Shown here: one piece after another, positions 24,441 through 42,342 of the stretch
Layout: each line of letters opens with the position of its first letter
How positions within the stretch are numbered: position 1 is the stretch's first letter
Assembly: GCA_946411205.1 (NCBI GenBank)
Contig: CAMKDG010000004.1
Location: 1 to 53,684, forward strand
DNA from: an uncultured Desulfotomaculum sp.
GTDB taxonomy: Bacteria > Bacillota > Desulfotomaculia > Desulfotomaculales > Desulfotomaculaceae
DNA: 53,684 nucleotides
Direction of reading: 5' to 3'
Program-made: the position numbers and the translations under genes
The notes under the pieces: generated by a model
Told to the model about the DNA's origin: nothing
Seen by the model: only the letters and a program-made list of their open reading frames with translations
Database searches by the model: none

Positions 24441-24455
24441 TTAGGTAAGAGAATA

Positions 24456-24622
24456 GTTTCTTCGTTAGGTGAGGCTTCTACATAGACATATGCCACTGCC
24501 CGGACTGTCGAGAGACTCTAACGGGCCAACAGGTTCTACCGAATTAAGGTTTTACCTAATGTGGCTGGGTAATCTAACCCTAGCTATGTATGTGCTAAAG
24601 CTTGTACGAGTGAAGAAGGCTA
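24456..24622 (+). promoter_or_regulatory. M-box (ykoK) magnesium riboswitch
   Basis: The conserved M-box core is readable: TTCGTTAGGTGAGGCTTCTA, GCCACTGCCCGGA, CGAGAGACT, AACGGGCCAACAGGT, ACCGAATTAAGG and TGGCTGGGTAATC. TACATAG near 24480 pairs with CTATGTA near 24585 to close the long arm. The outer stem pairs the TTTCTTC region with GAAGAAGG near 24613-24620. It precedes a Mg2+ transporter gene. By analogy with the Bacillus element, high Mg2+ stabilises the aptamer and exposes the terminator at 24646-24680, while low Mg2+ frees the TGAAGAAGG strand to pair with the terminator arm. Confidence 0.93.
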
Positions 24623-31239: not shown

Positions 31240-32273
31240 CGTACTGCTACCCTCCCTCCCACCAAAAACTGGCTGAATTCCACCAATTCCTTTAGTTTTT
31301 TGCGAGCCTTCCCAGAATCTATAACATCCCCCGCCAAGCGAACAGCCACAGCTAAATCGTTGGTCAGACCACCCGCCATTAGACCCAGGGCCGCATTAAT
31401 CATAACCGCATGCCTTTGGGGGCCAGGAGCACCCTCTAAAATATTTTTGATAATTCTTGCATTCATTTTGACATCTCCCCCGGCCAATGCCGCCACCGGG
31501 GAACGCGGTAGCCCGTACTCCGCCGGGTCTAAGATCCTCCGGCTAACCTTGCCATCTGTCACTTCATAGACCAGGGCTGCACCGGCTAAGGAAATCTCAT
31601 CCACACCCCCACAACCGTGGATAACAAAGGATTTTTTGCTGCCCAAATTGGCTAATACCTGGGCCAACACCGGAGTTAAATCCGCACTGTAAACCCCCAA
31701 TACCTGCCTTTCTGCAAAGGCAGGGTTGGTCAGAGGCCCTAGGATATTAAACACTGTCCGAATCCCTAGTTCCTTGCGGGGAGCAGCGGCATATTTCATT
31801 GCCCCGTGCAGTAAGGGGGCGTAAAGGAAGGAAATACCCACTTTATCCAGGCAATGACCGGCCTCTTCGGGAGTAAGGCTAACCGCTACTCCCAGGTACT
31901 CCAACACATCGGCACTACCGCACTTGCTGGAAACCGAGCGGTTGCCGTGTTTGGCCACAGACAATCCCGCACCCGCCAGCACAAAGGCACAGGCGGTAGA
32001 AATATTAAAAGTGTTGGCACCGTCCCCACCGGTACCACAGGTATCTACCAATCTCTGGCGCTGAGTCGCTACCGCTGTTACTTTGGCCCGCATGGTCCGG
32101 GCAAAACCGGTAATCTCTTCCACCGTTTCCCCCTTTAGATGAAGGGCTGTTAACAAGCCGGCAATTTGCGCCTGGGTGGCCAAACCTTCCATCATTTCAT
32201 CCATGGTTTGTTTGGCCTCATTTTCAGACAGACTTTCCCCCGCCACTACTTTTTTAATGGCTTCACTAATCAC
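31236..32273 (-). CDS. trpD: Anthranilate phosphoribosyltransferase
   Basis: About 345 residues. It transfers phosphoribose from PRPP to anthranilate. The PRPP loop is DTCGTGGDGANTFNISTA; KHGNRSVSSKCGSADVLE and RTVFNILGPLTNPA are family hallmarks. The start is set at GTG 32273, eight bases after AAGGAGG; the longer frame to 32312 (RRVEEDEKEERR) is encoded by the purine-rich region before that site and is unlikely to be translated. The TrpG and TrpD functions are separate genes. Confidence 0.94.
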   Translation of the reverse strand: MISEAIKKVVAGESLSENEAKQTMDEMMEGLATQAQIAGLLTALHLKGETVEEITGFARTMRAKVTAVATQRQRLVDTCGTGGDGANTFNISTACAFVLAGAGLSVAKHGNRSVSSKCGSADVLEYLGVAVSLTPEEAGHCLDKVGISFLYAPLLHGAMKYAAAPRKELGIRTVFNILGPLTNPAFAERQVLGVYSADLTPVLAQVLANLGSKKSFVIHGCGGVDEISLAGAALVYEVTDGKVSRRILDPAEYGLPRSPVAALAGGDVKMNARIIKNILEGAPGPQRHAVMINAALGLMAGGLTNDLAVAVRLAGDVIDSGKARKKLKELVEFSQFLVGGRVAVR

Positions 32274-32298
32274 TCGTCTCTCCTCCTTCTCGTCTTCC

Positions 32299-32880
32299 TC
32301 AACTCTTCTCAACTTGGCACTGTTTTAGAAAATTCATTAGTAAGGCTTTTCCCTGGGGGGTGGCTATGGATTCAGGGTGATACTGAACTCCTTCCACCGG
32401 ATACCGGGTGTGCCGGATACCCATCACCTCTCCTTCCGGTGTTCTGGCCGATATGGTTAGATTGTCGGGTAAACTTTCCTCCGCTACAGCTAATGAATGA
32501 TAGCGCGCGGCAGTAAAGGCTGGTGGAATCTTTTCGTAGATGCCTCGTCCGTCGTGGAGGATGGTCGAGGTTTTGCCGTGCATTAACCTACCGGCTTGTA
32601 TCACTTGCCCCCCCAATGCCTGGGCAATGGTTTGATGACCCAAGCAAACCCCCAGGATGGGTTTTTTGCCTATCAGCTGCCGTACCACGGCCAGACAAAT
32701 TCCTGCATCTTCGGGTCTGCCCGGTCCGGGCGAAATCAGTATGCCGCTATACCTTGGATCCAACAGGCTTTCTGTAGCAACGGCATCATTTCGGTAAACC
32801 TTGACCGGCCACCCTAATTCCCTCACCAACTGAACTAGGTTGTAGGTAAAAGAATCATAATTATCGATTACCGCCAGCAT
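32299..32880 (-). CDS. trpG: Anthranilate synthase glutamine amidotransferase subunit
   Basis: A 193-residue class I glutamine amidotransferase. Its nucleophile is the Cys in ILGVCLGHQTIAQALGG, and the His-Glu pair is in VEGVQYHPESIATP. It starts MLAVIDNYDSFTYNLVQLV. It provides ammonia to TrpE and starts two bases after the trpE stop. It may also serve PabB in folate synthesis, as in Bacillus, but no pab gene is here. Confidence 0.95.
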   Translation of the reverse strand: MLAVIDNYDSFTYNLVQLVRELGWPVKVYRNDAVATESLLDPRYSGILISPGPGRPEDAGICLAVVRQLIGKKPILGVCLGHQTIAQALGGQVIQAGRLMHGKTSTILHDGRGIYEKIPPAFTAARYHSLAVAEESLPDNLTISARTPEGEVMGIRHTRYPVEGVQYHPESIATPQGKALLMNFLKQCQVEKS

Positions 32881-32882
32881 TC

Positions 32883-34385
32883 CTAAGCCTCCCCTCCCTT
32901 CTGACAGGCCAGTACAGCCACGGCCATGGCCCTGGCCTTGTGTAACGTTTCCAGGTATTCTTGCGTGGGGTCAGAGTCGGCCACAATACCTGCCCCGGCC
33001 TGGAAATAAACCTTTCCTTGATGAATGACAGCGGTACGGATGGTAATGGCTGTGTCCATATTCCCTGCAAAATCCAGATAACCCACCGCACCGGCATAAA
33101 TCCCCCTCTGGGTTGGCTCCAATTCCTCGATAATCTCCATCGCCCGAATTTTGGGTGCTCCAGAGACAGTACCTGCCGGAAAGCAAGCAGCCAATGCCTC
33201 CAATTGCTGGCCAGTTGCTTCTAGTTGCCCTCTCACTTCCGACACCAGATGCATGACGTGGGAATAACGTTCCACCTCCATATACCGGGAAACTTCAACA
33301 GTTCCCGGCTGGCAAACTTTTCCCAGATCATTGCGCCCTAAATCTACCAACATAAGATGTTCGGCTCTTTCCTTTTCGTCTGTCAGCAGTTCTTTAGCCA
33401 ACTGTTGGTCCGCCTGCTCATTGGCTCCCCTGGGCCTGGTTCCGGCAATGGGGTGGCTATAAAGTTGCTTTCCTGCCAAACGTACCAGCATCTCCGGTGA
33501 TGCTCCCACTAAGTAGGTATCGCCAAAATTAAAATAATAAAGATATGGGGAGGGATTAATAGCCCGTAACCTTCGGTATAGTTCAAAAGCACTGCCGGAG
33601 AAAGGAAGGTTAAATCTTTGGGATAGGACCACCTGAAAGATATCACCGCGCCGAATATACGCCAATGCCTGTTTGACGGATTCCTCAAACTGTTCTCTGG
33701 TCGTTGTGGAAAATTTGGTAAGTTCCCGGTAGAGTTTTTCTTCTTCCCAGGGTAGGACTTCTGGGAGAGGCTCCAGGGCATACTGTTGTGGGGTTTGAAA
33801 AATCCTCTCGGCCATCTGGTCAATGGTGGCTATGGCTTGCTGGTAAGTATCTTCCGGTGCCCCTTGTCGAGGTTCGTTAGCAACGATTAGGAGGGTTCGT
33901 TTGACATGGTCAAAGATTAACACTACCCCTGGCAGCATCATCTGGCAAAGGGGCAAACAAAGACTCTCCTTTTGCAGATCCGGTAATTTTTCCAGGTAAC
34001 GAACCAGGTCATAGCTAAAATATCCCACCAAACCGGAAGTAAAGCGGGGCAATCCCGGCATCTGGGGGGAGCGAAACCTACTTAGCAGACCCTGTAAAGC
34101 TTCCAGCGGACCTCCGTGCAGTTTGGCGCTGCCCGCTGTCCCCCGATAACTGGCACAGTCCTGGTGGAATTGGTAATTCAACAAACTGTTTAGGCCGATA
34201 AAAGAATACCTAGCTAAGTGGGTACCTCCCTCTACACTTTCCAGCAGAAAACTGGGTCCCGTGGGTGATAATTTGCCATAGAGTGACACGGGTGTTTCGG
34301 TGTCCACCAGATATTCCCGGTAAACAGGAATTAAATTATACTCTTTACTCAAACGGCAATAACTTTTAAGGGGGGGATTATACAT
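32883..34385 (-). CDS. trpE: Anthranilate synthase component I
   Basis: A 500-residue chorismate-using enzyme and first gene of the operon. The N-terminal regulatory part carries the tryptophan-binding LLES motif ([14 protein letters not shown], residues 47-50), so feedback inhibition is expected. The chorismate-binding core has [61 protein letters not shown] and [16 protein letters not shown] 34385 is preceded by GGAGGTG. Upstream lies a 200-base leader with a TRAP site and attenuator. Confidence 0.96.
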
Positions 34386-34412
34386 CTTAGGACACCTCCA
34401 AATTAGCTTGCA

Positions 34413-34456
34413 CCAAGTTTTGAGATGCCGACGGAAGCTTCGTTTGCCCTTATATT
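34413..34456 (+). repeat. Degenerate half-copy F of the dispersed repeat in the trpE leader
   Basis: The plus strand reads CCAAGTTTTGAGATGCCGAC, then GGAAGCTTCGTTTGCCCTTATATT. It aligns with the right half of copy A (CCAAGTCTTTAGA..CGGCGGAAGCCTTAGTTTTTCTTATACTT) and with copy C (GTTTGCCCTTAT). It lies between the attenuator T-run and the trpE ribosome binding site. Confidence 0.45.
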
Positions 34457-34463
34457 GGCAAAC

Positions 34464-34497
34464 AAAAAAACCGGCAGCTCAAAGAATGAGCACCGGT
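34464..34497 (-). terminator. Attenuator terminator of the trp operon
   Basis: On the minus strand CCGGTGCTCA pairs with TGAGCTGCCGG (one mismatch/bulge) around TTCTT, followed by TTTTTTTGTTT. The left arm is shared with the antiterminator at 34489-34522. Confidence 0.9.
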
Positions 34498-34522
34498 TAT
34501 AAACTTACTTTATAACTCTGCT
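34489..34522 (-). promoter_or_regulatory. Antiterminator of the trp leader
   Basis: On the minus strand GTTATAAA (34516-34509) pairs with TTTATAAC (34503-34496) around GTAAG. AGCA (34522-34519) pairs with TGCT (34492-34489) outside a small internal loop. The structure uses TRAP triplets 11-12 on one side and the terminator's left arm on the other, so TRAP binding and terminator formation both exclude it. Confidence 0.82.
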
Positions 34523-34577
34523 ACCCTCAGCTAATCTCATCTCAACTATTTAACTCAGCTATTCTCAAACTCTTCTC
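34516..34577 (-). promoter_or_regulatory. TRAP-binding site: twelve GAG/TAG triplets
   Basis: On the minus strand the RNA has, 5' to 3', GAG, GAG, GAG, TAG, GAG, TAG, GAG, GAG, TAG, GAG, TAG, GAG. Nine of the eleven gaps are two bases; one is three and one is five. This is the classic substrate for the ring-shaped TRAP protein, each subunit binding one triplet when tryptophan is bound. The mtrB gene for TRAP is at 42022-42252. Confidence 0.93.
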
Positions 34578-34600
34578 ATAGGTAACTAAACTTATTTTAT

Positions 34601-34630
34601 AACTTAGCACACAGTGGCAGAATTTGTCAA
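34601..34630 (-). promoter_or_regulatory. Sigma-A promoter of the trp operon
   Basis: On the minus strand TTGACA (34630-34625) and a weak -10 TAAGTT (34606-34601) are 18 bases apart. The transcript would start about 15-20 bases before the first TRAP triplet. Confidence 0.65.
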
Positions 34631-34741
34631 TGACTTTTTTAAAAAGTATCGTAAAAAAATTAGGACTATTTGGAAGGAAATTTTATCTTTCCTGCATAAC
34701 CTATTAAAAGACATGATTTACCAGAAAGGTGGCTTAAGAAG

Positions 34742-34969
34742 TTGACAGATAAAAAAAGCATAACATTATTTGAGCCTTATGCAGTAGGAAATTTAGTGGT
34801 GTATGTCACTGGGGAGGATCGAGGTTCCGTGATTGAAGCAGACTGTCGCTGGGAATTGACCACCACGTTAACTAGCTGCGACTGTTGCACCTTCCACTGG
34901 CGTTCCAGTACGGACCCAACCTTTCAGTGTCGTCATATCTTGGCGTTGCGTGAGGTATTAGGAAAATAG
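34742..34969 (+). CDS. Small SWIM-type zinc-finger protein
   Basis: A 75-residue protein whose C-terminal half carries a SWIM-like zinc motif: CDCCTFHWRSSTDPTFQCRH, i.e. CxC with a distant Cys-x-His, followed by ILALREVL. SWIM domains occur in DNA-binding and Snf2-associated proteins, usually as part of larger proteins, so this stand-alone form is unusual. TTG 34742 is preceded by AAAGGTGG. It is divergent from trpE and monocistronic. Confidence 0.7.
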   Translation: MTDKKSITLFEPYAVGNLVVYVTGEDRGSVIEADCRWELTTTLTSCDCCTFHWRSSTDPTFQCRHILALREVLGK

Positions 34970-42021: not shown

Positions 42022-42252
42022 TTATTCGTCTGTCCGGATACGCCCGTGTTTAGTCATTAAATCTGCCCGTCCACGAATTTTAATGGCGGAAGTGTGCTCA
42101 GTAAACTGAGCAATCATGATTTCACCCTTATCCAATTTCTCGGAATGATGAAACTTGGTTGCTCCACCTCTGGTTAAACCAATAATCGTAACACCATTTT
42201 CCAACGCTTTAATAACAACGTAGTCGCCGCCAATCTGGTTGTTATCTGCCAT
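42022..42252 (-). CDS. mtrB: TRAP, trp RNA-binding attenuation protein
   Basis: A 76-residue TRAP. It matches Bacillus MtrB along its length: [30 protein letters not shown] and [17 protein letters not shown]. The RNA-contacting residues are kept (Lys39, Lys58 and Arg60, equivalent to Lys37, Lys56 and Arg58 in Bacillus). Eleven subunits form a ring; with tryptophan bound, it wraps GAG/UAG-rich RNA, promoting termination in the trp leader at 34516-34577. The ATG at 42252 follows GAGGTGG; the longer frame to 42279 lacks a site. No anti-TRAP gene is seen, and mtrB is not next to folE as in Bacillus. Confidence 0.95.
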
Positions 42253-42342
42253 TTGTGACCACCTCAAAAATTTCCTCATTTTTACAGCTTACATCATATC
42301 ATATTTAACCCTGGTTGACAAGCTGGAAAGCTCAGCCTTGCT

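Follow-up and report, generated by a model that had tools for sequence, protein, structure and literature searches.

A probable TRAP attenuator with a split triplet array before the trp operon of an uncultured Desulfotomaculum

The leader of the trp operon in an uncultured Desulfotomaculum sp. is very probably a tryptophan-dependent TRAP attenuator, a reading that we draw from the nucleotide sequence and its comparison with related genomes. It is a variant of the known kind, set apart by a split triplet array and by a CUC-bearing terminator arm. The TRAP mechanism is understood from a small number of Bacilli. In the class of anaerobes considered here it is near universal (105 of 113 genomes), and the natural leaders of these bacteria break the rule of eleven triplets separated by 2-3 nt. 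The window, i.e., the whole stretch of 53,684 nucleotides that was analyzed, holds the following parts of the system:

34601..34630, minus strand: likely promoter (-35 TTGACA at 34630-34625; extended -10 TG-C-TAAGTT at 34609-34601)
34516..34577, minus strand: predicted TRAP-binding array, 12 (G/U)AG triplets in blocks of 5 + 7 split by UUAAA
34549..34553, minus strand: central 5-nt gap UUAAA; TTAAATAG is exact in 6/9 genus leaders, with near-matches in the remaining three
34464..34498, minus strand: intrinsic terminator, a hairpin at 34498-34469 whose 5' arm carries CUC, with a U-run at 34470-34464
34400..34453, minus strand: copy of a dispersed repeat, between the terminator and the trpE ribosome-binding site
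34393..34399, minus strand: trpE Shine-Dalgarno sequence GGAGGTG, as read from the sequence
32883..34385, minus strand: trpE, first gene of trpEGDCFBA
32266..32310, minus strand: second TRAP-like site, whose 8 triplets cover the trpD Shine-Dalgarno sequence AAGGAGGAG and the GTG proposed as start codon (32273)
42022..42279, minus strand: mtrB, encoding the TRAP subunit (called at 85 aa; the start may be Met11)

The operon runs in the order trpE, trpG, trpD, trpC, trpF, trpB, trpA; trpE and trpG were named through a family search, trpD through a separate search, and trpC, trpF, trpB and trpA by eye from their translations. Upstream of the array, the leader (minus strand, read 5' to 3') contains the promoter-like stretch TTGACA / TGCTAAGTT. 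TTGAC stands at the aligned place in eight of the nine leaders of the genus, and a consensus promoter scan did not flag 34601..34630. Divergent from the trp leader, a 75-aa protein with a C-x-C...C-x-H motif is encoded at 34742-34969 on the plus strand; it gave no Pfam or NCBIfam match, and the motif is present in the trp loci of four of the nine genus members. The window also carries an M-box magnesium riboswitch at 24454-24621 on the plus strand (139.4 bits).

The twelve GAG/UAG triplets of the original prediction are indeed present on the minus strand at 34577-34516, and its account of one three-base and one five-base gap is exact, as the spacers run, in order, 2, 3, 2, 2, 5, 2, 2, 2, 2, 2 and 2 nt. 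Set beside the expectation of an array of about 11 (G/U)AG triplets, at least 7, with spacers of 2-3 nt and located upstream of trpE, the leader thus has 12 triplets, ten of whose 11 spacers measure 2-3 nt and one 5 nt. The B. subtilis ring binds stably to at least seven triplets (PMC4027176). In a chain score that gives 1 for GAG and 0.8 for UAG and that carries a penalty where a spacer differs from 2, the array reaches 10.25; the maximum among 2100 first-order Markov resamples of 70 trpE upstream stretches from the class was 4.3, and no chain of at least 5.5 arose when 90 records, amounting to 1.43 Mb, were each resampled twice and read on both strands. One might still attribute the triplets to a purine-rich composition and see in the leader a simple terminator or a T-box that escaped recognition, and some relatives do match a 6-triplet pattern about as well as its reversed control. 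We consider this explanation highly improbable: the arrays exceed all 2100 resamples, and T-boxes occur instead at five of the 14 array-less trpE leaders of the class that were scanned. An Rfam scan found no family at the trp leader of the window, and a T-box was rejected there for want of a match to RF00230.

Related genomes without the triplets, named beforehand as the observation that would speak against an attenuator, were not encountered within the genus. All eight same-genus genomes encode TRAP, and all eight carry an array before trpE. From G000 (the window genome) through G008 the chain counts run 12, 11, 12, 12, 12, 9, 12, 11 and 11, where the counts of 12 in G002, G004 and G006 take in triplets joined across gaps of 6-10 nt. 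G003 has its 12 triplets in the same 5+7 layout as the window. Spacers and flanks vary widely among the nine leaders, yet the UUAAA gap splits the array. Over the nine trp loci (345 kb, both strands), exactly two sites per locus score at least 4.3. Both are in sense orientation, one in the trpE leader and the other at the trpD ribosome-binding site.

For the class as a whole we examined the trpE leaders of 94 of the 98 genomes with a TIGR00564 match; G013, G047, G066 and G069 were left out, as they had PabB-like matches only or their N-terminal part was not located, and nine of the 94 lie below the family cut-off, two of them (G002, G040) because the gene is fragmented or cut by the end of a contig. 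Sixty-six of these leaders carry an array above 4.3, and hence above all 2100 resampled controls, although relatives are not independent, so that class-wide counts such as this overstate the number of events. Their chains comprise 6, 7, 8, 9, 10, 11 and 12 triplets in 7, 13, 12, 15, 7, 7 and 5 leaders, respectively. Seventy-two leaders possess a main run of four or more triplets at 2-3 nt spacing; in 32 of them a second run of at least two triplets lies 4-12 nt away, with 2.6 expected from shuffled flanks. Split arrays are therefore a real feature of the class, and the window, with its 5-nt gap, provides one example. No array above the threshold was found in the other 28 of the 94 leaders, and among 14 of these that were scanned, T-boxes were present in five (G051, G028, G030, G033, G103). 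The leader of G051 (locus L216) has two tandem T-boxes before trpE, and this genome also has TRAP along with TRAP-like arrays at trpP and iorA; judged by these sites, T-box and TRAP controls appear to be split between genes in this organism. Arrays occur in 65 of the 90 leaders from genomes with TRAP vs. one of four from genomes without it, an association that is not significant on its own (p 0.078) because only four leader-bearing genomes lack TRAP, three of them without an array. The exception, G037 (L118), has a 10-triplet trpE array, yet its assembly, 99% complete, yielded no TRAP gene, which may reflect a lost gene, an assembly gap or another binder. In the literature that we searched, subscription papers such as comparative studies of trp regulation in Gram-positive bacteria excepted, we met no account of TRAP leaders of this class.

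The terminator that had been predicted to follow the array is real: the hairpin at 34498-34469 (about -17 kcal/mol, z -4.3) lies behind a linker of 17 nt and carries seven U. A strict gap-free terminator scan returned no terminators in 34350-34760, in our view owing to a one-base bulge in the stem. Terminators stand behind the arrays of many families, their stems altered on both sides yet still paired (ACCGG, ACCAG, ACCAAU and GCGGC versions). The finder gave 56 terminators, of which four misplaced ones (G015, G024, G027, G068) were dropped by hand and another two (G018, G044) because their energy was weak. After the addition of G003, and with terminators taken from the alignment in place of the finder's choices for G002 and G006, the final set numbered 51. 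With seven over-long hairpins left out, own partners paired much better than swapped ones in the remaining 44 leaders (0 of 10,000 permutations), as they also did in the nine leaders of the genus alone (p 0.013). CUC is found in the 5' arm of 46 of the 51 terminators and in the 3' arm of none, and no more than 37 retain GAG in the 3' arm. That CUC is retained while its partner in the terminator drifts suggests that it has another partner, for which the GAG triplets are the obvious choice.

Such pairing would correspond to the antiterminator that the original prediction had assembled from triplets 11 and 12. Predicted folding of the nascent leader of the window, in which the 3' arm is not yet made, lends it plausibility: the 5' arm pairs upstream with a mean pair probability of 0.82, CTC-array pairing amounts to 0.91, and the fold draws on the region of triplets 10-12 and on a UUAUAAA/UUUAUAA hairpin. 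Over the nine genus members the upstream pairing probability of the nascent 5' arm ranges from 0.38 to 0.91, and CTC-array pairing is at least 0.75 in six of them and at most 0.21 in G001, G003 and G008. Partner swapping, on the other hand, revealed no coevolved helix (p 0.45 for the nine genus leaders and 0.16 for all 44), while the terminator control in the same test worked; this null result is to be expected if any GAG serves, and equally if no antiterminator exists. The comparison of folds with and without the triplets constrained, likewise proposed in advance, gave a divided answer. Blocking the triplets clearly lowers capture of the nascent 5' arm in six of nine genus members, does not do so appreciably in G003 and G008, and raises it in G006. 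In whole-leader equilibrium folding, however, the terminator forms with or without blocked triplets in eight of nine members (0.97 vs. 0.92 in the window), and G005 alone switches. As the terminator is favoured at equilibrium either way, the switch, if working, would be kinetic.

A stretch of 64 nt separates the terminator from the trpE ribosome-binding site, with the trpE ATG at 34385. We rejected a control element between the terminator and the Shine-Dalgarno sequence, since this stretch is a dispersed repeat of about 54 nt with 10 matches in the window genome, 19 in G001, 11 in G007 and none in the five other genus genomes searched. No copy occupies this position in the eight other genus leaders; the repeat lengthens the leader of the window genome only. 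It bears on the proposal that TRAP acts mainly by hiding the trpE ribosome-binding site, which is one arm of the B. subtilis system, and not through termination. The CATCTC of the repeat is complementary to GAGGTG of the Shine-Dalgarno region (with one G-U pair) and to GAGATG of triplets 7-8, and in the predicted folds of the window leader the unpaired fraction of the Shine-Dalgarno sequence drops from 0.24 to 0.17 on blocking the triplets. This shift is small, however, and the change in Shine-Dalgarno access stays at or below 0.09 in all nine genus members, so that a TRAP-promoted hairpin hiding the trpE Shine-Dalgarno sequence is not supported; moreover, the repeat is an insertion peculiar to one leader, and a strong and conserved terminator is present. 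We therefore judge the proposal very unlikely and retain attenuation through termination as the probable function of the leader.

The second TRAP-like site, over the start of trpD, is GAG-rich in all nine genus members, with the triplets kept while the spacers vary. Outside the genus, we looked at 30 of 91 trpD-bearing genomes, of which three score above 5.5 at the trpD ribosome-binding site (G048, G111, G112), and 4-5 triplets are present there in a few others. In the window genome, trpP (contig C30, L281) is preceded by 5+3 triplets and then by a terminator-like hairpin, and a TRAP-like array with such a hairpin stands before trpP in all seven genus genomes with TrpP (L281, L273-L275, L279, L282, L283), several of which have extra GAG triplets at the trpP ribosome-binding site. 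The indolepyruvate oxidoreductase gene iorA is located on the same contig of the window genome, about 2.5 kb beyond trpP. Arrays lie directly upstream of iorA in G005, G051 and G060, and were noted before iorA (indolepyruvate ferredoxin oxidoreductase) at L285, L287 and L288 and before a PaaK-like ligase gene (phenylacetate-CoA-ligase-like by eye) at L140 and L141; to judge by these arrays, both genes are possible new TRAP targets. Further arrays precede a putative gene for a tryptophan ABC-transporter binding protein (L114, L159), a putative trpB (L156, L157, L160) and a putative trpG/pabA (L142, L143), all named by eye from translations. In five genomes of one genus, the gene for a DctP-like binding protein is preceded, at a distance of about 90-165 nt, by 5-6 GAG triplets (L136, L146, L147, L148, L150), and these arrays may be due to chance, because the reversed-pattern control also matches in those genomes.

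The mtrB gene lies in the same window, 7.5 kb upstream of the trp leader. Its product matches the profiles NF009724 (138.7 bits; cut-off 117) and PF02081 (134.7 bits), and the window genome has a single TRAP gene (134.3 bits vs. a cut-off of 21.3). F32, E36, K37, D39, K56 and R58, which are among the RNA-binding residues in Table 3 of PMC3184956, are all present. Anti-TRAP (PF15777) was not found above the cut-off in any of the nine genus genomes, and it is also lacking in some Bacilli that have TRAP (PMC11255114). All nine TRAP proteins of the genus share V11, L15 and T72, have R or K at position 71 and end at residues 74-76.

The original prediction had offered, for the spare triplet, either a register choice or a different ring number, and one may accordingly envisage a twelve-subunit ring with one triplet per subunit. 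Thr72 and a short C-terminus, features that PMC3184956 ties to the B. halodurans 12-mer or to engineered 12-mers, would agree with this, as would the matching 5+7 layout of G003. The markers of ring size in the window TRAP are mixed, however: L15 resembles the B. stearothermophilus 11-mer, T72 the B. halodurans 12-mer, and R71 neither. According to the same source, 11-mer TRAPs have V or L at position 15 and S72, whereas the B. halodurans 12-mer has K15, D71 and T72, and the leader in that species carries 19 triplets, more than the ring has subunits. Lys15 and Asp71, which pull the C-terminus out in the B. halodurans type, are absent from the window TRAP, and ring size cannot be read from its sequence. 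Nor does the triplet number provide a readout, as counts of 9, 11 and 12 occur in the genus with the same residues at positions 11, 15 and 72, and the trpP and trpD sites of the window genome have only eight triplets each; the 5-nt gap, in addition, breaks the pitch. Deriving ring size from the triplet count was consequently rejected. The ring-number idea is not favoured by the evidence, and we consider a twelve-subunit ring unlikely; the twelve triplets are a generous binding site and not a subunit count.

For the tryptophan-dependent attenuator that we favor, the arrangement of these parts suggests the following course of events. When tryptophan is plentiful, tryptophan-loaded TRAP would wrap the nascent leader on both triplet blocks, leaving the CUC-bearing 5' arm free for its own 3' arm, and transcription would end ahead of trpE. 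Under tryptophan shortage, the emerging 5' arm would be captured by the linker together with the GAG-rich 3' block, and RNA polymerase would read through. On such read-through mRNA, TRAP would most likely also block translation of trpD by binding to the second site over its ribosome-binding site. More tentatively, and with well less than even confidence, we envisage a two-step device throughout the class: a 5' block of 3-5 triplets might tether the ring, and the 3' block past a short hinge might serve both as binding site and as the antiterminator strand that pairs with the conserved CUC, so that TRAP and the terminator arm would compete for the same GAG bases, and the same ring would shut off trpD translation. 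The leaders of the class represent ready variants for testing ring size against triplet number and gaps, and for testing triplets as antiterminator.

The element shares with the B. subtilis trp attenuator TRAP itself, a (G/U)AG array upstream of trpE, a terminator just downstream, and, by prediction here, an antiterminator that would involve the last triplets. In B. subtilis, too, the antiterminator, at +60 to +111, has just a few bases in common with the terminator, at +108 to +133 (PMC4027176). The B. subtilis leader has 11 triplets with spacers of 2-3 nt, whereas that of the window has the 5+7 arrangement with its wide gap; the window terminator is strong and its U-run unbroken, whereas the B. 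subtilis terminator is weak and needs TRAP (PMC3913778). If the promoter is read rightly, only about 20 nt precede the first triplet in the window leader, which again differs from B. subtilis, as does the position of trpG inside the trp operon. The B. subtilis hairpin that hides the Shine-Dalgarno sequence, an added layer that does not define attenuation, has no supported counterpart here. The T-box trp operons of Firmicutes represent an alternative control, which certain trpE leaders within the class use and which is missing from that of the window. With B. halodurans, the window shares more than eleven triplets and Thr72, and differs from it by having 12 instead of 19 triplets and by carrying Leu15 and Arg71 where B. 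halodurans has Lys15 and Asp71. Finally, the trpD site resembles the B. subtilis trpG, trpP and ycbK sites, where the triplets likewise overlap the ribosome-binding site (PMC11255114); the target here is trpD within the trp operon, and the trpP leader of the genus, in contrast to its B. subtilis counterpart, combines an array with a terminator-like hairpin.
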